Positions 2,621 through 21,909 of a stretch of 22,257 nt of DNA are shown here, piece after piece. The DNA lies in IMG/VR virus record IMGVR_UViG_3300032157_000046, positions 1-22,257 of that record. One strand, 5' to 3'. The first letter of the stretch is position 1. Each line of letters opens with the position of its first letter. The notes below the pieces were generated by a model that had not been told where the DNA came from, made no database searches, and saw only the letters and a list, made by a program, of their open reading frames with translations. The translations under genes and the position numbers were made by a program. This stretch comes from a virus.

Positions 2621-2641
2621 GTGATAATGGAGGAATTTATT

Positions 2642-3373
2642 ATGCTATTAGATTCATTGAAGGATATTGTAAAGCACACTCATTCGTTGGGCTTTATTGA
2701 AATGGTTAAATTAGTAGGAACAGCAAAGGATGCTAAGATTGAAGCAATTGACGCTGATAAGTCAGTTGTATTATATGGGGATTTATATCAACCTCTTAAA
2801 GAAATAGAAGCCACGATAGGATTATCACGTATGGGACTCTTAAAGGGATTTATAGAATTGCATGGTGATTCTAAGATTTCAGTTGAAGTTGAAACTCGTG
2901 GTACTGCATCTGTACCAACAGAATTAAAATTTGATGATGGCGAGGGTGACGTTGCATCTTATCGTTTTATGAGTGAAACAGTTGCAAATGATCAAATTAA
3001 AGTTCCACCATTTAAAGGTGCAGTATGGAATGTGACAGTTAAGCCAGAAAAGGCAAAAATTGATAGACTTAGCAAATATCAAGGTGTTCTTGGAAATAAC
3101 GAAAAGCGTTTTATTGTTTCAACAAAGAATGATGTGTTGAATTTTTCAATAGGAAATGGTCCTACAGATAGAAGTAATCTTCCGTTTGCATTAGGTATTA
3201 CAGGTTCTTTGAAACATCAATGGTCATGGCCATTGGCTCAAGTCTTGAGTATTCTTAAATTAAATGATGGAGGTGATGTCACAATGCATTTCTCGGATAT
3301 GGGTGCATTGAAGATTGACGTTGATAGTGGCGTTGGAAAGTATAGTTACATTCTCCCAGCAACAAAGGCCTAA
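2642..3373 (+). CDS. 45: DNA polymerase sliding clamp, gp45-like
   Basis: Predicted 243-residue processivity clamp that would ring DNA and tether the polymerase; in T4 it is also the mobile activator of late transcription. Support comes from its place directly after the polymerase gene, its length (T4 gp45 is 228 residues), the absence of catalytic motifs, the mixed alpha/beta pattern and a C-terminal YSYILPA strand typical of clamp folds. The start is set by GGAGG at 2629-2633, eight bases upstream. An upstream ATG at 2627 would place the ribosome site inside the coding region, and the 2567 ATG precedes the promoter. The gene is the first of a long rightward block and its TAA overlaps the next ATG. 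Primary-sequence similarity between clamps is low, so the call rests partly on context. Confidence 0.8.
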   Translation: MLLDSLKDIVKHTHSLGFIEMVKLVGTAKDAKIEAIDADKSVVLYGDLYQPLKEIEATIGLSRMGLLKGFIELHGDSKISVEVETRGTASVPTELKFDDGEGDVASYRFMSETVANDQIKVPPFKGAVWNVTVKPEKAKIDRLSKYQGVLGNNEKRFIVSTKNDVLNFSIGNGPTDRSNLPFALGITGSLKHQWSWPLAQVLSILKLNDGGDVTMHFSDMGALKIDVDSGVGKYSYILPATKA

Positions 3374-6090: not shown

Positions 6091-6339
6091 ATGGGAAAGG
6101 TAATATCTGATCATCTCGACCTATTAGGACAACCTTTAGCAGAAGGTAATTATGTTGCGGTATCGCATCATAATATGCTACAAGTGTGTCAAATCAAAAA
6201 ATTAAATCCAAAAATGATGCGAGTCATGCCTGTCAGGAATCATTACAGGCATGATGGATTTTTAATTTATTCAAATCAAGCAGTATTATTATCTGGTCAA
6301 GATGCTTTGGCATATATATTAACCTACGCAGGTGTATAA
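6091..6339 (+). CDS. Hypothetical protein (82 aa), SH3-like pattern
   Basis: The 82-residue protein starts at ATG 6091, two bases after the preceding TGA, and its stop overlaps the next ATG (TAATG). The pattern G-x-P-L-x-E-G-x-Y-V-A-V followed by short strands (MLQVCQIKKLNPKMMRVMPV) looks like a small barrel (SH3/KOW-like) fold, which is a weak inference. The middle of the gene carries an inverted repeat followed by a T-run (6224-6263), described separately. No function can be given. Confidence 0.75.
   Translation: MGKVISDHLDLLGQPLAEGNYVAVSHHNMLQVCQIKKLNPKMMRVMPVRNHYRHDGFLIYSNQAVLLSGQDALAYILTYAGV
6224..6263 (+). terminator. Terminator-like hairpin inside a coding gene
   Basis: TCATGCCTGT (6224-6233) and ACAGGCATGA (6245-6254) form a perfect 10-base-pair stem with an 11-base loop; TTTTT follows at 6259-6263, four bases after the stem. 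It lies in the middle of the 82-residue gene, far from any gene end. The T-run is offset, so at most a partial terminator or pause site; it may also be a protein-binding site. Confidence 0.4.
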
Positions 6340-6557
6340 TGGAAAAGAAAATATTAACCGAAGAGGAAGAAGCAGATGAGATTGTAAAAAGACTTGCAAC
6401 TCATCCAGCACCACCAGAATCTTTTAGTAACCGGTATTTTCGCACGGTAATTCTTCCATTAATTAGAAGCGTAGAACCGAAAACAATAGCTGCCGACATT
6501 TTAAGTGTCCAACCAATGTGGCAAGAAAAGGATAAAGATGAAGATTTACATAGTTGA
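6339..6557 (+). CDS. Small acidic hypothetical protein (72 aa)
   Basis: ATG 6339 shares a base with the preceding TAA. The 72-residue product has an acidic start (EKKILTEEEEADEIVKRL), a proline-containing middle (THPAPPESF) and a helical region (YFRTVILPLIRSVEPKTIAADILSVQPMW). It is mostly helical and soluble. The last 20 bases overlap the glycosyltransferase gene, which indicates translational coupling. No family is recognised. Confidence 0.72.
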   Translation: MEKKILTEEEEADEIVKRLATHPAPPESFSNRYFRTVILPLIRSVEPKTIAADILSVQPMWQEKDKDEDLHS

Positions 6558-7617
6558 CTTAGAATCTGTCCCTTCAAGATATACATGTGAATGGAAAACA
6601 TATCTTCCAGAAATGTTAAGAGCCGAAGTTAAAAAATCTGGTAAAGATATTGAAGTTATTAACATTTCTGGAGGAGAACAATCTATTGAAGCCACTCCAG
6701 GAGCATTCTTAAATTTTCAACAAACTAACATATACAAAAACAATCAATTGAATGACATAGCACAGAGATTTTCTACAGAAATAAAACCCGGTGATAAATT
6801 TGTATTTGCAGATGCGTGGCATACTGGTATTTTGCAATTGAAATACATGAGTGAGTTATTAAATATTCCTGTAGAAATACATGCATTATGGCATGCCGGT
6901 AGTTATGATCCACATGACTTTCTTGGACGCTTAATTAAGAATAAGGCATGGACGTATAATACAGAACGAGCATTATATCACGCCATTGATCATAATTATT
7001 TTGCAACAGACTTTCATATTGATTTGTTTGTAAAAACAATTATTGGAAATCAATCGTATATTATGATGGATATATTGACTGAGAAGATTATTCGATCTGG
7101 ATGGCCAATGGATTATATGCCTTCTATCACAAAGGATATAAAAAGTTCTAAAGAAGATATTATTGTTTTCCCACACCGTATAGCTCCAGAAAAGCAAGTT
7201 GATATATTCCGTGATTTAGCAAAAGAAATGCCTCAATATCAATTTATTGTGTGTCAAGATAATAAGCTAACTAAGTTAGAATATCATAAATTATACAGTA
7301 GGTCAAAAGTTATGTGGTCTGCAAATCTTCAAGAAACATTGGGAATTAGTCCATTTGAAGGTGCATTGCATGGTGTTTATCCATTATTACCTAATAGGTT
7401 GAGTTATACAGAAATGTATCCAGATCAGTTTTTATATCCGTCTGAATGGACAGTATCATTCGAAGCATATACAAAGCATAAGGCCGATGTAATTGCAATA
7501 ATAGACAGGGCCATGAAATCCCATTCGTCAATGTTAGATGACATAGAGAAATTATCAAATCATTTATTACAAGAGTATTTTACAGCTACGTCATTAGTAG
7601 AAAAATTAATTAATTAA
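6538..7617 (+). CDS. GT4-like (GT-B fold) glycosyltransferase
   Basis: This 359-residue protein has the C-terminal half of a retaining GT4-type glycosyltransferase. VFPHRIAPEKQVDIFRDLA (about residues 208-226) is the donor-domain start seen in such enzymes. ETLGISPFEGALHGVYPLLPNR contains the EX7E motif (E266 and E274) followed by the G.YPLLP turn that binds the sugar-nucleotide donor. The N-terminal half (MKIYIVDLESVPSRY...FVFADAWHTGILQLKY) would be the acceptor domain. ATG 6538 overlaps the preceding gene by 20 bases; the longer in-frame start at 6505 lies deeper in it. The acceptor is unknown. Position between dpdA, QueD-like and queE suggests modified DNA as one possible acceptor; host surface or protein glycosylation are alternatives. 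Confidence 0.8.
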   Translation: MKIYIVDLESVPSRYTCEWKTYLPEMLRAEVKKSGKDIEVINISGGEQSIEATPGAFLNFQQTNIYKNNQLNDIAQRFSTEIKPGDKFVFADAWHTGILQLKYMSELLNIPVEIHALWHAGSYDPHDFLGRLIKNKAWTYNTERALYHAIDHNYFATDFHIDLFVKTIIGNQSYIMMDILTEKIIRSGWPMDYMPSITKDIKSSKEDIIVFPHRIAPEKQVDIFRDLAKEMPQYQFIVCQDNKLTKLEYHKLYSRSKVMWSANLQETLGISPFEGALHGVYPLLPNRLSYTEMYPDQFLYPSEWTVSFEAYTKHKADVIAIIDRAMKSHSSMLDDIEKLSNHLLQEYFTATSLVEKLIN

Positions 7618-7626
7618 GGGAAAATT

Positions 7627-8427
7627 ATGAAAAGAGATGGACACGAAAAAGCAATATTCTTTATAGGACCAGAAGTAGAACATACTCCTGCGTATTCTAA
7701 GAAGACTTTGTTTGTTGTTGGTAAGCAAGATTTAAATAAAATTGTAGAATTAGCAAGAGAACATAAAGTTCCACATGTTTTTATGGGTGCGAATCATTCA
7801 TTTGATTTTGATCCGGCCGATAATACCCACTATTGGGATCTAACTATTCAAGCATTATTGGATCGTGGATTTTGGGTAACTTTAGATTATGAAGCACATC
7901 AGCATAAATCAGTTCTTAAGATGTTAGGACCACATACTTGGCAATCAAGAATGTTTGTTCCATTGTTAAGTGTTCGTATTCCAAATATTCAAAATTCGAG
8001 CGTTAACTTAACTGTTAAGATGGATGACATTGATTTTAAAGCAACTAATCCAGGTGTATGGTGTATGCACTTTCATGAAGTGACAGATAGCAATCGTTTC
8101 ACTGATTGGATCGAATATGGTAATGACTATGTAATTGATACCGAAATAGTTAAGGAGGAGCCAATAACTCCTGCCGATATGATTGTTACAACACCATCGA
8201 GTCGTTCCAAAGAATTAATTGAAGAATTAAAGAAAAAGGTATCTCCTGTTAAGAATGATGAAAATCTTGGATTAGATCCAGATTCGAAATCTATGCTAAA
8301 AGGTGAGCCAGAAAGGATAATGGAAAAATTAAATATTACAGCACTTGATGCGGCTGAAGCCTATGCTGAAGGTGCAAAAACAGATCCGTTAGGTAAAGAA
8401 ACTCTTACACTTAAGAAAAAGAAATGA
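7627..8427 (+). CDS. Conserved phage protein of unknown function (266 aa)
   Basis: The 266-residue protein opens with GHEKAIFFIGPEVEHTPAYSKKTLFVVG, then a Rossmann-like alternation of strands and helices (DLNKIVELAREHKVPHVFMGANHSF; YWDLTIQALLDRGFWVTLDYEAHQH). A middle part (LLSVRIPNIQNSSVNLTVKMDDIDFKATNPGVWCMHFHEV) is rich in His/Asp/Cys that could hold a metal or catalytic site. The last 70 residues are low-complexity and charged. I recall similar proteins from T4-like phages but no function. It lies nine bases after the glycosyltransferase and overlaps the queD-like start by an ATGA, so it is probably part of the same pathway. No QueC P-loop (SGGxDS) is present. Confidence 0.8.
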   Translation: MKRDGHEKAIFFIGPEVEHTPAYSKKTLFVVGKQDLNKIVELAREHKVPHVFMGANHSFDFDPADNTHYWDLTIQALLDRGFWVTLDYEAHQHKSVLKMLGPHTWQSRMFVPLLSVRIPNIQNSSVNLTVKMDDIDFKATNPGVWCMHFHEVTDSNRFTDWIEYGNDYVIDTEIVKEEPITPADMIVTTPSSRSKELIEELKKKVSPVKNDENLGLDPDSKSMLKGEPERIMEKLNITALDAAEAYAEGAKTDPLGKETLTLKKKK

Positions 8428-8786
8428 TTGAATCAAGACAAATATTTGTAACTTTTCAAAAAGAAGGTATTCATCGTTATCCAGATGCACCAGCAGGGGT
8501 AGAATTTTTACGTCATCCACACCGTCACATTTTCCATTTTAAAGTTAAGGTTGATGTTTTCCATAATGATCGTGATATTGAGTTTATCCTTTTCAAACGA
8601 GAACTTGAGTCACTTTATTCTGCACAAACATTAGAGGTGGATTACAAAAGCTGTGAAATGCTTGCAGAGGAATTAATTGATTACATATCTAAAAAATATC
8701 CTAAGCGCAAAGTTTCTGTCGAAGTCAGCGAAGATGGAGAAAACGGTGCTATCCTGTCCTATTATACCCCCACCAAAGTTTCATAA
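8424..8786 (+). CDS. queD: QueD/6-pyruvoyl-tetrahydropterin synthase-like protein
   Basis: This 120-residue protein resembles QueD, which makes 6-carboxy-tetrahydropterin from dihydroneopterin triphosphate in the 7-deazaguanine pathway. The zinc site can be read as H17, H33 and H35 (HRH), matching the spacing of the QueD zinc ligands. IEFILFKREL stands for the usual DFxxLK helix start, SCEMLAEELIDYI for the PTSENLAxWI helix, and VSVEVSEDGENGAILSYY for the final strand with its Glu. The canonical catalytic Cys before HGH and the DHxxLN motif are both absent, so activity may differ. It starts by ATGA overlap with the preceding gene. Role inferred from the neighbouring dpdA-like and queE genes. 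Confidence 0.72.
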   Translation: MIESRQIFVTFQKEGIHRYPDAPAGVEFLRHPHRHIFHFKVKVDVFHNDRDIEFILFKRELESLYSAQTLEVDYKSCEMLAEELIDYISKKYPKRKVSVEVSEDGENGAILSYYTPTKVS

Positions 8787-8982
8787 AAGATATAAAACTA
8801 TTGTCAAAGTTGATGTCCACAAGGGTATAGAATATGTGTCAATGATGGAATGGATTGATCAGAATAGTAAGGGTTCAGTTGATGTAAAATCAATATCCGA
8901 TGGTTATGGAACTCTTGTTCTCTATTACGGTTTTGAAAATAGTGATGATGCGTTAGTCTTTAAAATAAAATATTCAAAATGA
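8746..8982 (+). CDS. Small protein with C-terminal FKIKY motif (78 aa)
   Basis: The product overlaps the end of the queD-like gene. The start is best placed at GTG 8746, because GGAG at 8736-8739 lies six bases upstream; ATG 8734 in the same frame is the alternative but has no ribosome site. The C-terminus YYGFENSDDALVFKIKYSK matches a motif found in three other small genes of this window (12109, 12508 and 19352). The body shows beta strands (YKTIVKVDVHKGIEYVSMMEW; GTLVLYYGFE). The TGA overlaps the next ATG. Function unknown. Confidence 0.7.
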   Translation: MLSCPIIPPPKFHKRYKTIVKVDVHKGIEYVSMMEWIDQNSKGSVDVKSISDGYGTLVLYYGFENSDDALVFKIKYSK

Positions 8983-9233
8983 GCACAAATAATACAACAG
9001 GTGATAGATGGGTTTTTCGCAAAGAAACAGAAGATTGGGCCGGTCATTATCATGGGGTGAACAATAAATATCCTGTTATGGATATAGATCAAAGATTAAG
9101 GAGAGTTGAGGAACAATTATTACTTGTTGCTCCACCTGTTGATATGCTTGCTAAATATCCTGCACTTGCTGAAGCATACCAAAATTACAAAATAATTGAA
9201 AGGCTAGCATTAGGAAATGATAAAACCACATAA
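8979..9233 (+). CDS. Hypothetical helical protein (84 aa)
   Basis: ATG 8979 overlaps the preceding TGA (ATGA). The N-terminus is polar with a Trp-rich piece (DRWVFRKETEDWAGHYHG), followed by a helical region, IDQRLRRVEEQLLLVAPPVDMLAKYPALAEAYQNYKIIERLAL, that could form a short coiled coil. The pattern RLR.VEE.LLL..P....L.KYPAL..AY..Y..IE is one I associate with small phage proteins of unknown role. It overlaps the epimerase start by 17 bases. Confidence 0.75.
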   Translation: MSTNNTTGDRWVFRKETEDWAGHYHGVNNKYPVMDIDQRLRRVEEQLLLVAPPVDMLAKYPALAEAYQNYKIIERLALGNDKTT

Positions 9234-10212
9234 AGTATTAATCACAGGAGGTGGTGGGTTTATTGGAACCCAGGTATCCTGGGAATTGGCAGAAGCCGGC
9301 CATGATGTTACAATTGTTGATAGAAATCCTCCTATTCATAATTTTCCGGGTGTATATCGAATTGCTGACTTTTTAGATTTCATTCGATCTACCGATCAAA
9401 CATTCGATACAATCATACACCTTGCGGCGGAGCACCTCATTGAGTATAGCGTGTCTGATCCGGAGAAATATTATACAAATAACGTGATAAAAACAAAGGC
9501 ATTGCTTGAAGTTATGCGTGAACGCAGAATAAAAAATATTGTTTTTAGTTCAAGCGGAAATGTATATGGCAGACAAGGTAGCAAAAGTTCTCTCTCAGAA
9601 AATATTTATTATGATCCTGAAAATCCATATGCGGCTTCTAAGGTAACCGGTGAACTTATGGTTAAAGATTATTCTAGAGCATATGGATTAAATTATGTAA
9701 TCTTTAGATATTTTAATGCTTCTGGCGCCGACCCAAAATGTCGATTTGGTTATGTCCAACGACCTGCTACTCATGTTATTCCTGTCCTATGTAATAAAAT
9801 CCTAAATGGAGAAATGTTTCCAATATTTGGAAGTAATTATCCTACATTAGATGGAACATGTGTTCGCGATTATGTTCATGTAGCAGATTTGGCAAGAGCT
9901 CATACCAAGGCTTTAGAATTGTTTGATGGTCAAATAGCAAATCAAACATTAAATCTTGGTGGCGGCAGTGAAGGTATTAGTGTTAAAGAGTTAGTATATC
10001 ATGCAGCAACAATTGTTAAGAAAGATCCTGTTATTGAATATAAGATACGTCGACTTGGTGATTCTGCCAGACTGGTAGCTAATATTTCAAGAGCAAAGGT
10101 TATTTTAGATTGGGAACCAAAATATGACATTAAGTCTATTATTCAACACGCCTGGAATTGGGAGAAAAAATATAATGAGCAAATGGTTGGAAAAATTCAA
10201 GAAGAAATCTAA
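9217..10212 (+). CDS. NAD-dependent sugar-nucleotide epimerase (GalE-like SDR)
   Basis: This 331-residue extended short-chain dehydrogenase/reductase has a TGGGGFIG nucleotide-binding loop at residues 10-17, a catalytic Ser region SSSGNVYG (about 111-118), and YxxxK as Y138 and K142 (PYAASKVTGE). The FRYFNASGADP and GTCVRDYVHVADLARAH segments are typical of UDP-glucose 4-epimerase and related UDP-sugar epimerases. It would interconvert a nucleotide sugar in the cytoplasm, possibly the donor for the glycosyltransferase 1.6 kb upstream. ATG 9217 has AGGA a few bases upstream and overlaps the preceding gene by 17 bases. The exact substrate cannot be read; a dehydratase or other SDR sugar enzyme is possible. 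Confidence 0.9.
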   Translation: MIKPHKVLITGGGGFIGTQVSWELAEAGHDVTIVDRNPPIHNFPGVYRIADFLDFIRSTDQTFDTIIHLAAEHLIEYSVSDPEKYYTNNVIKTKALLEVMRERRIKNIVFSSSGNVYGRQGSKSSLSENIYYDPENPYAASKVTGELMVKDYSRAYGLNYVIFRYFNASGADPKCRFGYVQRPATHVIPVLCNKILNGEMFPIFGSNYPTLDGTCVRDYVHVADLARAHTKALELFDGQIANQTLNLGGGSEGISVKELVYHAATIVKKDPVIEYKIRRLGDSARLVANISRAKVILDWEPKYDIKSIIQHAWNWEKKYNEQMVGKIQEEI

Positions 10213-11239: not shown

Positions 11240-12112
11240 ATGTTTGGATCAAATGAAATCGTAGGTCAGAAGTTTTTTAAAGATGCACCAAAGGATAGCT
11301 TGTTTGTTACAAGCATGTTTCTTACATTACAAGGTGAGGGTCCATTAGGTGGATTAGTAGCATTATTCATTCGTCTAACCAAATGTAATCTTGCATGTTC
11401 ATTTTGTGATACGTTCTTTGACGCTGGTGATTGGATGTCATTTGAACAGATTGAAGAAAAAGCAAAAGAAACAATCAGAAATTATTTTAATGGAGACCCA
11501 CCTGATTGGGCAATATCTAATAGAGGTGGACCTTTACATCCAGGTGTTGCGTTAGTTATTACAGGTGGTGAACCTACTTTACAAAAGAATTTAACAGAAT
11601 TCTTAAGAAGACAGGTAGGTGATTACAAAGCAGTTCAAATTGAAAGTAATGGAACAGTCAATTTAGAAATTCCAAAAGGTGTCTTACTTGTTTGTAGTCC
11701 TAAGTGTGCAGAAAAGGATGGTAAACCTACCAAATATCTAGCACCAACTAAACAAATACTTCAACGTGCAGATTGCTTGAAATTTGTAATGAGCGCAGAA
11801 AAGGATAGTCCATATAGTGAAGTACCGGATTGGGTTCATGATTGGAAACATAGAACAAGTGGAGAAGTTTATATTAGTCCAATGAATATGTATAATGATT
11901 ATCCATATAGGGCTAAGATTCTTAGAGCAGAAAAACAAGGTGAAATTACCATGTTCGAACGCTCTACAGTAGATGAAGTTATTAGTTTCTGGGAACCAGG
12001 TTTATTGAATATGCGAGCCAATCAAACCAACCATGAATATGCGGCTAAATATTGTATGTCACATGGGTTTAGATTAAACTTACAGGTACACTTATACGCA
12101 TCATTGGCATGA
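11240..12112 (+). CDS. queE: 7-carboxy-7-deazaguanine synthase, radical SAM (QueE)
   Basis: QueE converts 6-carboxy-tetrahydropterin to 7-carboxy-7-deazaguanine, using a 4Fe-4S cluster and S-adenosylmethionine. The signature is clear: TLQGEGPLGG (QGEG at 31-34), FIRLTKCNLACSFCDTFF with cluster ligands C49, C53 and C56 (CxxxCxxC), VITGGEPTLQ (the SAM-binding GGEP) and VQIESNGT. At 290 residues it is longer than most bacterial QueE (about 210-240), with an insert around NYFNGDPPDWAISNRGG and an extended C-terminus. ATG 11240 lies two bases after the preceding stop, and its TGA overlaps the next ATG. With the dpdA-like gene it argues for guanine-to-deazaguanine modification of phage DNA. Confidence 0.95.
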   Translation: MFGSNEIVGQKFFKDAPKDSLFVTSMFLTLQGEGPLGGLVALFIRLTKCNLACSFCDTFFDAGDWMSFEQIEEKAKETIRNYFNGDPPDWAISNRGGPLHPGVALVITGGEPTLQKNLTEFLRRQVGDYKAVQIESNGTVNLEIPKGVLLVCSPKCAEKDGKPTKYLAPTKQILQRADCLKFVMSAEKDSPYSEVPDWVHDWKHRTSGEVYISPMNMYNDYPYRAKILRAEKQGEITMFERSTVDEVISFWEPGLLNMRANQTNHEYAAKYCMSHGFRLNLQVHLYASLA

Positions 12113-12507: not shown

Positions 12508-12723
12508 ATGATAATTCCAGATGAATTAGTTGGCCGAGTTGCCAAGACCAGATTAAGCGGCGCAATTAGTGGTTTCAGAAAACTAGATGAGATTAGGAAG
12601 TTGTGGCAGGTAGCCGAGATAGATGTCGTGTATGAAAATCTCGATCCGATCATCGTAGTGGTTTTTGAATCCACGGAGGATTGCCTAGCTTTTAAATTAA
12701 AATACGGAGATGATTATGCCTAA
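12508..12723 (+). CDS. Small protein with C-terminal FKLKYG motif (71 aa)
   Basis: Third member of the small-protein family: the 71-residue product ends in PIIVVVFESTEDCLAFKLKYGDDYA. The N-terminal half is different from its relatives (MIIPDELVGRVAKTRLSGAISGFRKLDEIRKLWQ) and includes a helix and a short strand, IDVVYEN. The start follows the previous stop by one base. The GGAG that serves the next gene lies within this gene's C-terminal codons. Function unknown. Confidence 0.75.
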   Translation: MIIPDELVGRVAKTRLSGAISGFRKLDEIRKLWQVAEIDVVYENLDPIIVVVFESTEDCLAFKLKYGDDYA

Positions 12724-13348
12724 GATTCCATTTGAATGGATGCCAGGTTCATGGGGACTGGCAGGTAAAACGAAAGAAATAGCAAAGGCCGAGTATGAGC
12801 TTACGGGTTTTGATCTTGAAGAAAAACTATTAGAATTAAAGAAATCAGAACTTCCAGAACATGATTATTTAAGACAGATGATTGAACTTAAATATAAATA
12901 TAAGAAGTTGGATGAAGCAGATTATCACAAGAACCTTGCTGCTCTTATACAAGATGAGAAGCAACGAAGTCTCGCATTCCTAGAAATAGATTATAGAGAA
13001 GGTACAATCGGAGAGCTTGATTATAACAAACAACTTGCTACACTAAAGGGCGAGCCATGGGTCAATGTAGTTAATATGGATTTTACCAAAGCCTCATCTC
13101 TTGAAGGCAGCTTTGAATTAGACTGGAACGAACATTTTGTTACAAAGCTGAAGGCCGAAGGATATACGGGACCCACTCCAGATAACATAGTAAATCAGTG
13201 GTTTATGGAACTCTGCCGAAATATAGCGTTAGAGGAATTCGACGGCACAGGAAATTTTACTCCTGATTCGGAAGCCAATCTAGAAGCTGTGAAACGTTGG
13301 AGTTCTGAATCGGAATCCTTTCCAAAAGGTAGAAAAGGTTACAAATAA
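12716..13348 (+). CDS. Conserved hypothetical protein (210 aa)
   Basis: ATG 12716 is chosen because GGAG ends just before 12710, giving six bases of spacing; ATG 12710 would have none. The protein starts PKIPFEWMPGSWGLAGKTKEIAKAEYELTGFDLEEKLLELK, which I associate with unassigned proteins of T4-like phages. It continues as helical, charged repeats in which D-Y-x(0-2)-K/R-x-L-A recurs (about residues 55-105). The C-terminal half has LDWNEHFVTKLKAEGYTGPTPDNIVNQWFMELC. No catalytic motif is seen. Its stop overlaps the next start (TAATG). Confidence 0.8.
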   Translation: MPKIPFEWMPGSWGLAGKTKEIAKAEYELTGFDLEEKLLELKKSELPEHDYLRQMIELKYKYKKLDEADYHKNLAALIQDEKQRSLAFLEIDYREGTIGELDYNKQLATLKGEPWVNVVNMDFTKASSLEGSFELDWNEHFVTKLKAEGYTGPTPDNIVNQWFMELCRNIALEEFDGTGNFTPDSEANLEAVKRWSSESESFPKGRKGYK

Positions 13349-16595: not shown

Positions 16596-16960
16596 GGAAG
16601 TGTGTCTACAAAATAATCGGGATACATTTTCCCAAATTTTCTCATTATTACTCCAGCCACGGCATTAGCCTCATTTTCAATTTCACTTCCGTCGGAACCG
16701 TCTAGTTCCATTCCTTGATTAAGTTGTTGCCAATGAACTAATTCATGTACTAAAGTTCTCATAACATCCATTGGATGTCTATCCTTAGAAACAACTCTTA
16801 CTGAATTTCCATCGAACTCCCCAAATGAGGTTCCGCCTCCCACAGCAGAATCGTCATCAACAAGATTTATTGGAGGCAACTCATCAATTCCAAGCTCATT
16901 CTTGCAGAGTTGTAACAAATGTGTTATCATATGTTCTTGGACAACTTCGTATAATTTCAT
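16592..16960 (-). CDS. Zinc metallopeptidase, HExxH type (IrrE/ImmA-like layout)
   Basis: This leftward gene encodes 122 residues from ATG 16960. VHELVHWQQ at residues 71-79 gives the zinc-binding HExxH (H72, H76) with catalytic E73. ENEANAVAG (E97) supplies a likely third ligand, in the E-x-AN-x-x-A layout of ImmA/IrrE-type peptidases. The small size and lack of a signal peptide suggest a cytoplasmic enzyme acting on a phage or host protein. The start at 16960 is preferred over those further upstream because a GATAAATA octamer lies at 16966-16973 on this strand, and the predicted start site is the A of this ATG. The first residues (MKLYEVVQ) resemble the MRIHEF start of the other leftward gene. 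Confidence 0.82.
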   Translation of the reverse strand: MKLYEVVQEHMITHLLQLCKNELGIDELPPINLVDDDSAVGGGTSFGEFDGNSVRVVSKDRHPMDVMRTLVHELVHWQQLNQGMELDGSDGSEIENEANAVAGVIMRKFGKMYPDYFVDTLP

Positions 16961-16965
16961 AACAC

Positions 16966-16973
16966 TATTTATC
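16966..16973 (-). promoter_or_regulatory. Late-type promoter octamer GATAAATA (leftward)
   Basis: On the minus strand the octamer lies five bases upstream of ATG 16960. By T4 late spacing (+1 six bases after the octamer) the A of the ATG is the predicted first transcribed base, so the mRNA would be leaderless. It also ends directly at the ATG of the divergent HNH gene (16974). Confidence 0.6.
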
Positions 16974-17519
16974 ATGAACGCCGCAGACAACAAATCCGAA
17001 TGGAAAAATCTAGACACATTAAAGTTCGACGAACTAACTATCGAACAACTTTTAGATTTAAATGAACAATTAGCCTTATTAAGGAAGCATCAAGAAGCAC
17101 TTAAATGGTTGGAAAATTGCCCTAAATGGGCTAAAGAATTTATCCTAACACCTAAGAATGCCGATTCTGCTAAATTAAAATTTCAATTTCTGAAACAGAA
17201 TATATCTAGAGCCAAAAACAGAAAGGATGGTAAAGTAATAGACATAACACCAGAATACGTTTGGTGGGTTGGACATAATCAAGACTGGAAATGTTCCCTT
17301 ACTGGTGTAGAATTAGAATTTACTCGAGGAGGATATCGGTGGGGTGGAAAATGGTGTAATCCGTTTAGTTGTACCATGGATCGAATAGATAGTAAGAAAG
17401 GATATGTAGAAGATAATATTCAATTAGTAACTTGGCAATCCAATTGTATGAAACGTGATATTAGTAATGAGGAATTTATAGCAATTTGTAATGCAGTACA
17501 TTCGCATAATAAGAAATGA
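16974..17519 (+). CDS. HNH-like endonuclease
   Basis: The 181-residue protein has a helical N-terminus (about residues 20-60, FDELTIEQLLDLNEQLALLRKHQEALKWLE). The nuclease-like core follows from about residue 100: W-K-C-S-L-T-G-V-E-L (C107), then C-x-M-D-R-I-D-S-K-K-G-Y-V-x-D-N-I-Q-L-V-x-W-x-x-N (D136-D139) and a terminal helix. This CxLTGxxL...MDRID..KGY..DNI..V...N order is a known HNH variant in phage free-standing endonucleases. ATG 16974 lies 13 bases from the divergent metallopeptidase start. A TATAAT-like element (16950-16955) lies upstream without a good -35, and no Shine-Dalgarno sequence is visible. A homing role is inferred. Its stop overlaps the next start. Confidence 0.82.
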   Translation: MNAADNKSEWKNLDTLKFDELTIEQLLDLNEQLALLRKHQEALKWLENCPKWAKEFILTPKNADSAKLKFQFLKQNISRAKNRKDGKVIDITPEYVWWVGHNQDWKCSLTGVELEFTRGGYRWGGKWCNPFSCTMDRIDSKKGYVEDNIQLVTWQSNCMKRDISNEEFIAICNAVHSHNKK

Positions 17520-20116: not shown

Positions 20117-21310
20117 ATGGAAATTAATAACGTTAAAATGTGGGTCGGAGATATGGAGGTTGAGGATGCTGCTATTCAGCAGATCACTAATATTTCTATG
20201 CTCCCAATCTTGGCAGGGCATATTGCTGTGATGCCAGACGTTCACATGGGTAAAGGAGCCACTGTTGGTTCCGTTATTCCTACTCGTAACGCTATCATTC
20301 CTGCTGCTGTCGGTGTCGACATCGGATGTGGAATGTGCGCTGTTATGACCAATTTGGTTGCAGATGATCTTCCAGATTCATTGTTCGCTCTTCGTAATCA
20401 GATTGAGCGCGATGTTCCTGTCGGCTTCAACGAGCATAAGGCAGGCACTCCGTCTGTGTCGGGTCCTTATGCTGATATCCTTCGTAAGAATTTGAAGAAG
20501 ACAATGGATCGATATGATCATTTGACACTTAAGGCAAAACTTGGACGCGCAGATGAAAATCGTATTGGTCGTCAGATTGGTACGCTTGGAGGCGGAAATC
20601 ACTTTATTGAAATTTGCCTTGACTTGGATAATCGTGTGTGGGTAATGCTGCACTCGGGTTCACGTGGAATTGGTAACCAGATCGGAACTGTTGCGATTGA
20701 ATTGGCGAAAGATCAAGCCAAGGTTCGCGCATGGGGTTTGGCTGACCAAGATCTTGCTTGGCTGGATGAAGGAACTGCTGAATTCGATGCTTATATCGAA
20801 GCTATGCATTGGGCGCAGGATTATGCACGTTTCAATCGTGACACAATGATGAATTTGGTATTAGCTGCGTTGAAGACTCGCTTCTCGAAGATGAAGACAA
20901 TTGGTGAGGTAGTTAACTGCCACCACAACTTTACTTCGTGGGAGGAACACAACGAGCAAGGAATGTGGGTGACTCGAAAGGGTGCTGTTTCTGCTAAGAC
21001 TGGTGAACTTGGTATTATTCCAGGCTCGATGGGTGCTAAGTCATTCATTGTGCGTGGTAAGGGTAATAAGGAAGCTTACTGTTCCTGTTCGCATGGTGCC
21101 GGACGAAAGATGAGCCGTAATCAAGCCAAGAAGTTGTTTACGTCTTTGGATCTGGAAAATCAGACCGCCGGAGTTGAATGTCGTAAGGATGACGCTGTCA
21201 TTGATGAGATTCCAGGTGCATACAAAGATATAGATCAAGTTATGGCAGCACAAGCCGATTTGGTTGATATTGTGCATACGCTCAAGCAAATTTTGTGTAT
21301 TAAAGGATAA
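20117..21310 (+). CDS. rtcB: RNA-splicing ligase RtcB
   Basis: RtcB joins 3'-phosphate or 2',3'-cyclic-phosphate RNA ends to 5'-OH ends with GTP and manganese. All family marks are present: PDVHMGKG (residues 40-47), GVDIGCGM with metal ligand C71, GGGNHFIE with H162, HSGSRGIGN with H179, NCHHNFTSW with H269/H270, and YCSCSHGAGRKMSR, whose H326 is the GMP-accepting nucleophile. At 397 residues it is near bacterial length (about 408 in E. coli). It probably repairs tRNA or mRNA cut by host anticodon nucleases or toxins. It follows the RHH protein by nine bases and is followed by a 34-base inverted repeat. Codon use is richer in G and C than in neighbouring small genes. Confidence 0.97.
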   Translation: MEINNVKMWVGDMEVEDAAIQQITNISMLPILAGHIAVMPDVHMGKGATVGSVIPTRNAIIPAAVGVDIGCGMCAVMTNLVADDLPDSLFALRNQIERDVPVGFNEHKAGTPSVSGPYADILRKNLKKTMDRYDHLTLKAKLGRADENRIGRQIGTLGGGNHFIEICLDLDNRVWVMLHSGSRGIGNQIGTVAIELAKDQAKVRAWGLADQDLAWLDEGTAEFDAYIEAMHWAQDYARFNRDTMMNLVLAALKTRFSKMKTIGEVVNCHHNFTSWEEHNEQGMWVTRKGAVSAKTGELGIIPGSMGAKSFIVRGKGNKEAYCSCSHGAGRKMSRNQAKKLFTSLDLENQTAGVECRKDDAVIDEIPGAYKDIDQVMAAQADLVDIVHTLKQILCIKG

Positions 21311-21366: not shown

Positions 21367-21909
21367 ATGGACTATCCAAAAACAGCAAAAGAGGCAAAAG
21401 AAATAAATGCACACAAATATTTTACAGGATTAGAATGTAAATTTAATCATATATCTCCAAGATATACGCATAATAGTCAATGTGTCGAATGTGGTAAAAT
21501 TGCAGGCAGGAAAGCCAGAAATACGCCCGAAGGTAAAATATATGAAAAAGAATATTATAGAAGAATTCGAACTGAGCGTGTAGAACAGATAATGTTAAAT
21601 TCGGCCAAAGGCAGGGCAAGAAAAAGAAATATACCGTGTTTGATAAATGCAGAAGATATTTTAAATGTATGGCCTTCAAACGGCTTATGTCCTGTGTTAG
21701 GTATTGAATTAAAACATAATTATGATAAGAATGGTGGTCATACTTCCAATTCACCATCATTAGATTGTATAAATCCTAAATTAGGATATATTCCTGGAAA
21801 TATCGCAGTGATGTCACAGAAAGCGAATTTACTAAAAGGGGACGAAATAGATCCAGCTATTTTTAGAAAAATAGCAAATTGGATAGAATCGCAAAACCTG
21901 TTGCGCTAA
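21367..21909 (+). CDS. HNH-type endonuclease with N-terminal zinc motif
   Basis: The 180-residue protein has a zinc-type N-terminus (C24, H28, C39, C42 in CKFNHISPRYTHNSQCVEC), a very basic middle (about residues 47-90) and an HNH-like core: C108-P-V-L-G-I-E-L, then S-P-S-L-D-C-I-N-P-K-L-G-Y-I-x-G-N-I-A-V-M-S-x-K-A-N (D133). The core matches the HNH protein at 16974 in order, though DRID is replaced by DCIN, so activity may differ. It is very AT-rich against the rtcB gene before it and the gene after it, and has its own late promoter and ribosome site, all consistent with a mobile homing-endonuclease insertion. Confidence 0.85.
   Translation: MDYPKTAKEAKEINAHKYFTGLECKFNHISPRYTHNSQCVECGKIAGRKARNTPEGKIYEKEYYRRIRTERVEQIMLNSAKGRARKRNIPCLINAEDILNVWPSNGLCPVLGIELKHNYDKNGGHTSNSPSLDCINPKLGYIPGNIAVMSQKANLLKGDEIDPAIFRKIANWIESQNLLR

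Follow-up and report, generated by a model that had tools for sequence, protein, structure and literature searches.

In animals, queuosine in tRNA is glycosylated by the enzymes QTGAL and QTMAN, and phage T4 possesses two families of glucosyltransferases, one of which is GT63. As reported, the α- and β-glucosyltransferases of T4 act on 5-hydroxymethylcytosine, the second family, GT72, being known from phages only (PMC13216743), and 7-deazaguanine modification of phage DNA is carried out by DpdA systems, as in phages 9g and CAjan (Hutinet 2019, PMC6884629). A survey published in 2021 reports a deazaguanine system in phage PA5oct, and the passages considered tie no glycosyltransferase to this system. 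DpdA systems, glucosylation in T4, and glycosylation of queuosine have each been described before, and their combination is possibly new; no description of DpdA systems combined with base glycosylation was found in the open-licence PMC literature. Here, we analyze a gene block with the elements of such a combination on the IMG/VR virus fragment IMGVR_UViG_3300032157_000046, whose entire 22,257 bases are referred to as the window. The block is probably a cassette for hypermodifying DNA with a glycosylated 7-deazaguanine, which would be formed via QueE, a QueD paralogue, a DpdA/TGT-like transglycosylase (with an undescribed conserved protein, U266), a GT4-type glycosyltransferase (GT), and the epimerase GalE.

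The window features, in this order, a DNA polymerase gene (phrog_262), a clamp-like gene, the DpdA-like gene, small open reading frames (ORFs), GT, U266, the QueD paralogue, a small ORF, GalE, further ORFs, and QueE (Table 1). A first-pass annotation made from the DNA letters had proposed that a glycosyltransferase and an epimerase are interleaved with dpdA-like, QueD-like, and queE genes; the genes are located as it stated, and its observation was confirmed as a whole, including the assignment of queE, although its inventory of the block was incomplete in that it missed U266. It had also described these genes as translationally coupled. Overlaps do exist between the small ORF at 6339-6557 and the start of GT (20 bases), between the ORF at 8979-9233 and the start of GalE, and between U266 and the QueD paralogue (4 bases), but a distance of 1.4 kb separates GT from dpdA, and no deazaguanine gene is coupled to GalE. 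Frame overlap of GalE is common at those GT loci that possess it.

The genomic linkage between GT and the deazaguanine genes is very strong. Three scans of viral contigs were anchored on GT, DpdA, and the QueD paralogue, respectively, each comprising the best 80 of more than 500 relatives. All 80 loci of the GT scan contained one or more of DpdA, QueD paralogue, QueE, FolE, and QueD, and DpdA was present in 42 of the 44 loci with more than 9 kb upstream; conversely, each of the 49 loci of the DpdA scan that extend 5 kb or more downstream had GT no farther than 5 kb away. The picture was the same when at least 4 kb were required on both sides of the anchor, which excluded 34, 37, and 32 of the 80 loci in the three scans because of short flanks: DpdA was found in 44 of 46 loci of the GT scan and GT in 43 of 43 loci of the DpdA scan, whereas in the QueD-paralogue scan GT accompanied 38 of 39 loci with DpdA and none of the nine without it. 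Regarding the exceptions, L055 in the GT scan has DpdA elsewhere in the contig, no DpdA was found in contig L089, and L205 in the QueD-paralogue scan has GT elsewhere in the same contig. Retention of glycosyltransferase and epimerase in relatives lacking all deazaguanine genes, which the first-pass annotation had named as evidence against its proposal, was thus not encountered for GT, the result for the epimerase being weaker (see below). An operon assembled by chance is ruled out by the recurrence in other phages and viral contigs, and membership of GT in the deazaguanine pathway is strongly supported.

Among cultured phages, the link recurs in PA5oct/Paride, ACP17, Phosso, and X1. Specifically, 19 records of the phage collection match GT, 15 of them over at least 80% of its length; all of these 15 belong to the 27 records with the QueD paralogue, and 12 possess the DpdA class of the window. 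Annotated neighbourhoods were read for 5 of the 19 records, and those of the other Pseudomonas records follow from match coordinates, with PhiXhv-15, PhiXhv-16, and Ep032 left out. In Paride, DpdA, GT, the QueD paralogue, and QueE follow one another in succession, while in ACP17 and X1 GT occurs with a second DpdA class, which shares approximately 19% identity with the window DpdA; in Phosso, GT adjoins the QueD paralogue and DpdA is located 170 kb away. The most distant GT relative, 23% identical, is that of PhiXhv-12, located near Gat-QueC (L006:9753-11273, PF06508, E 2.3e-49) and adjoining a PIG-L deacetylase gene; elsewhere, the genome of this phage has a gene annotated as QueD and a DpdA-like match, the latter being weak. 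An amino-sugar synthase beside this GT was considered and rejected, as the gene annotated L-glutamine-D-fructose-6-phosphate aminotransferase is Gat-QueC. In a scanned collection of 84,980 species of bacteria and archaea, a single GT relative was detected, which again adjoins DpdA and the QueD paralogue. When 16 records were searched for GT, none was detected in 12, namely 9g, 2.275.O, and ten with the QueD paralogue (four phages and six contigs).

Family libraries scarcely detect the window GT (Pfam Glycos_transf_1, E 0.2, under the cut-off; phrog_4356 glycosyltransferase, E 0.006). The structure model, calculated with 37 sequences taken from the window and from viral contigs, displays high confidence, with a predicted local distance difference test (pLDDT) value of 92.9 and a predicted template modelling score of 0.90, and has a two-domain GT-B fold, with whole-chain matches at Z 25.5 to 20.6 among the 50 listed. 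The best match is sucrose-phosphate synthase (6kih; Z 25.5, 317 residues, 3.3 Å), and the list further includes BshA (3mbo; Z 24.4, 300 residues, 2.8 Å) and tetrahydrobiopterin glucosyltransferases (5zes and 9v0l; Z 20.6); the T4 glucosyltransferases are not among these 50 matches, which is evidence neither way. The GT4 motifs R-x4-K (R214/K219) and E-x7-E (E266/E274) are present in the window GT, and both, the latter also as D-x7-E, occur in 187 of 196 GT frames of sufficient length. The Z 24-25 matches and E266/E274 bear out the earlier proposal of a GT4-type enzyme with an EX7E motif. Taken together, fold matches and conserved motifs make it very likely that GT is an active nucleotide-sugar transferase of the retaining type, as predicted from the model, the sugar donor being left undefined by both.

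For the window DpdA, no Pfam or PHROG family scored above cut-off. Its motifs DSGGFQ, HFLGVG, and SFD are largely kept in 37 relatives as DSGGxQ, HxLG, and S[FY]D and align partly with E. coli TGT; DSGGxQ and the later Asp in SFD/SYD, which are catalytic motifs of the TGT superfamily, are invariant or almost invariant in these sequences. In hhalign comparisons, the DpdA profile A2 matched E. coli TGT (prob 90.7, E 1.2e-6), the larger profile A8 reaching only prob 21.2, and neither profile matched DpdA of phage 9g. The description "dpdA-like" is supported by the motifs and the profile match, and the predicted role is insertion of 7-deazaguanine into DNA. In Vibrio phage 2.275.O, a relative of this DpdA adjoins QueF, a queuosine biosynthesis gene, a COG1738 transporter gene, and FolE. 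A gene for a xanthine/guanine-type phosphoribosyltransferase (L012:11025-11558; cluster 8) is found near the block in 87 loci, and its product could salvage guanine freed by DpdA.

U266 has a conserved core of approximately residues 1 to 170 followed by a variable tail. Homologues occur in ACP17 and in 47 of the 49 DpdA loci whose downstream flank spans 5 kb or more, and one contig (L162:6975-9005) harbors a natural in-frame DpdA-U266 fusion; therefore, U266 probably works together with DpdA as its partner. Its model (pLDDT 85.6) gave no Foldseek match under E 0.1. U266 might be a degenerate QueE, to which a fold match points weakly (5th5; Z 6.2, 131 residues, 3.4 Å), but this found no support in profile comparison. 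Sequence searches of the PDB with DpdA, U266, and the QueD paralogue returned nothing useful.

The "QueD-like" protein of the first-pass annotation is homologous to QueD, as evident from a profile comparison with phage QueD (prob 86, E 5e-6) and from the His triad H17, H33, and H35, invariant in nine sequences, but it lacks the catalytic Cys of QueD, and none of nine members matched the PTPS Pfam family; judged from these sequence features, it is therefore a QueD paralogue rather than QueD. The paralogue also occurs, mostly with FolE and QueE, in loci without a nearby DpdA or GT of these classes (L005, L007, L009, L010, L176-L184, L186, L189, L209, and L228), and Cellulophaga phage phiST is of the same kind, a MazG-like gene adjoining its QueD paralogue; such phages might conceivably carry out the modification on nucleotides. 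In QueE, the radical-SAM cysteines C49, C53, and C56 are invariant in 31 sequences, and the NCBIfam QueE models match the window protein with scores under their cut-offs. QueC was not found in the phages Paride, ACP17, Phosso, and BUCT-ZZ01, and X1 gave only a partial match below cut-off; partial QueC matches were obtained in 5 of 11 contigs, in two of these five solely below cut-off. The presence of QueE with no clear full-length QueC in the complete phage genomes of this class points to 7-carboxy-7-deazaguanine as the putative branch point, before preQ0.

The GT sequences comprise two subfamilies, A (including the window) and B, which are about 20% identical. On a tree of 149 DpdA sequences, all from GT loci, the GT subfamily switches 11 times, at least six of these on starred branches. 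The window GalE exceeds the cut-off of the galE model TIGR01179 (291.3 versus 262.3 bits), in agreement with the previously assigned GalE-like epimerase. GalE is present within 4 kb downstream in 46 of 54 subfamily B loci compared to 4 of 74 subfamily A loci (p 1e-21), the window being one of the rare A loci with GalE. The expectation that the epimerase would be lost together with dpdA was not borne out, as the presence of GalE does not track that of dpdA and most subfamily A GTs have no GalE nearby; it is an accessory following one GT subfamily. A UDP-sugar dehydrogenase gene occurs in 27 distinct loci, all of subfamily A and none with GalE (Fisher p 2e-5, kinship ignored), and a MocA-like gene (26 loci) and an alcohol-dehydrogenase-like gene (29 loci) are likewise confined to subfamily A. 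The dehydrogenase and oxidoreductase genes at these other A loci look as if the sugar varies.

Table 1. Features of the deazaguanine block in the window.
Feature	Position	Strand	Basis
Clamp-like protein	2627..3373	+	phrog_12062 (function unknown in PHROGs), E 4.9e-36; directly 5' of dpdA
DpdA/TGT-like transglycosylase, 523 aa	3524..5095	+	TGT-type motifs; profile match to E. coli TGT
GT, retaining GT-B/GT4-type glycosyltransferase, subfamily A, 359 aa	6538..7617	+	Model, structural matches, motifs; start ATG at 6538, stop at 7617
U266, undescribed conserved protein	7627..8427	+	Homologues in DpdA loci; model
QueD paralogue	8424..8786	+	phrog_17812, E 4e-33; profile match to phage QueD
GalE-type UDP-glucose 4-epimerase	9217..10212	+	TIGR01179 above cut-off
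QueE, 7-carboxy-7-deazaguanine synthase	11240..12112	+	phrog_2076, E 1.7e-49

Outside these core genes, the phrog_12062 protein encoded upstream of dpdA, whose ORF cluster has members in 165 loci, is a putative clamp. A match to phrog_13349 ("virion structural protein"; 12710-13348) lies 3' of QueE both in the window and in Paride and belongs to a cluster represented in 91 loci. The window further encodes an RtcB RNA ligase (20117-21310; PF01139, E 2e-127) and two endonuclease VII/HNH-like proteins of one family, phrog_3322 (16902-17519 and 21367-21909). PADLOC gave no useful outcome.

The data establish that the genes are present, to which fold class GT belongs, and that the genomic linkage is very strong; from this we infer the following pathway, including its substrate, the sequence of its steps, DNA as the site of the final product, the identity of the sugar, and the attachment atom. 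QueE, with FolE and QueD provided by either phage or host, would yield 7-carboxy-7-deazaguanine, which the QueD paralogue may process, by analogy through decarboxylation; DpdL, on which Cui et al. worked in 2023, is reportedly a 7-carboxy-7-deazaguanine decarboxylase. DpdA, with U266 as partner, would swap guanine in DNA for the processed deazaguanine, and GT would then transfer the sugar of a UDP-sugar onto the deazaguanine, transfer before insertion into DNA being a less likely order, with GalE presumably broadening the donor supply to UDP-galactose in the window phage. The interpretation given in the first-pass annotation, a glycosylated deazaguanine in DNA, is partly supported, and that the sugar ends up on a DNA base is what we infer. 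Some GT4 enzymes sharing the fold of GT glycosylate small molecules, as its structural matches indicate, which speaks in favor of the pathway.

Several points weigh against it. The attachment atom is its weak point: if the QueD paralogue produced plain 7-deazaguanine, this would offer no hydroxyl for glycosylation. A carboxylate would lead to a glycosyl ester, and bare 7-deazaguanine to a C-glycoside, which could form on C7, or to linkage at another site. No base analysis or chemical data were found for any member. GT is acidic (median pI 5.75, n=43), which is not suggestive of DNA binding, although DpdA is acidic too. The cut-off of PF01702 was reached in none of the 20 records searched, the lower scores showing how divergent the DpdA class of the window is, and joint change of GT subfamily and GalE on the DpdA tree was not significant (sign test, median p 0.5). 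Note that distant GT relatives are poorly sampled by best-80 scans and that the 257 loci form 229 groups, some counted loci being near-copies.

A different order of steps would lead to the same DNA product: GT may glycosylate the free deazaguanine base or nucleotide, the finished base being installed by DpdA or the polymerase. The acidic nature of GT fits this route, and its nearest folds include small-molecule enzymes, i.e., BshA, which acts on malate, and the tetrahydrobiopterin glucosyltransferases. However, a bulky glycosylated base may not fit DpdA, the known 7-deazaguanines of phage DNA enter via DpdA as small bases, and we consider this order rather unlikely. The same tetrahydrobiopterin enzymes, together with the many blocks that contain FolE and a paralogue of the QueD family, could indicate that GT acts on a pterin intermediate formed by FolE or QueD, giving a pterin glycoside as in cyanobacteria. 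Yet many other GT4 enzymes are better structural matches, the GT of PhiXhv-12 adjoins Gat-QueC downstream of the pterin steps, and GT tracks DpdA even though eight of the nine QueD-paralogue loci devoid of both have FolE, all of which makes a pterin substrate very improbable.

It is about equally hard to reconcile with the data that GT and GalE function in making surface glycans or virion glycans and only happen to lie in this operon. GalE is indeed common in phages (334 records match), and some blocks contain dehydrogenase and aminotransferase genes typical of glycan clusters, but the GT family is nearly restricted to deazaguanine phages and GT holds its slot despite repeated subfamily exchange. 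There is also little to be said for tRNA rather than DNA as the target of transglycosylase and GT, which would give a queuosine-like glycosylated phage tRNA. Animal tRNA queuosine is galactosylated and mannosylated, and RtcB is encoded in the window as well; against this, the block adjoins the phage DNA polymerase gene and the DpdA relative of 2.275.O is part of a phage deazaguanine cluster.

On a larger scale, the chances appear balanced that a widespread, unrecognised class of phage DNA exists in which guanine is replaced by glycosylated 7-deazaguanine and the sugar is varied among lineages via GT subfamily and adjoining UDP-sugar enzymes; as part of the same, evenly poised reading, the sugar exchange would be due to GalE, UDP-sugar dehydrogenase, the pair of MocA-like and alcohol-dehydrogenase-like enzymes, and, in PhiXhv-12, the PIG-L deacetylase. 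A new sugar-bearing DNA nucleoside is thereby predicted in phages already in culture, e.g., Paride, which kills dormant P. aeruginosa (PMC10761892). If true, the cassette unites two known strategies of DNA camouflage, deazaguanine exchange and base glycosylation, and yields a set of GTs with differing sugar supplies.

Compared to known systems, the block resembles the DpdA systems of 9g and CAjan in that a single phage region holds both the FolE/QueD/QueE pathway and a transglycosylase of the TGT type (PMC6884629). Where those systems have QueC, QueF, or Gat-QueC, the class of the window has GT, U266, and the QueD paralogue, 9g being devoid of a GT of this family. The phiST class shares the QueD paralogue, QueD, QueE, and FolE, but in the 14 kb covered it possesses the MazG-like gene instead of a DpdA or GT of these classes. 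As in phage S-B43 with its carboxymethylcytosine, a carboxylated base would serve as handle for hypermodification, although S-B43 modifies cytosine by glycine ligation and involves no sugar (PMC12783734). The parallels to T4 and queuosine drawn in the first-pass annotation hold as analogies, GT having its structural neighbours among GT4 enzymes, e.g., BshA and sucrose-phosphate synthase. Like animal queuosine glycosylation, the cassette would place a sugar on a 7-deazaguanine nucleoside, but the animal system acts on tRNA, with the sugar on the cyclopentenediol of queuosine, a compound not made by the block. Like the T4 glucosyltransferases, GT is a phage GT-B enzyme that would put a sugar on a modified DNA base, whereas the T4 enzymes act on cytosine (PMC13216743) and belong to phage-only GT families and the GT of the window resembles GT4.

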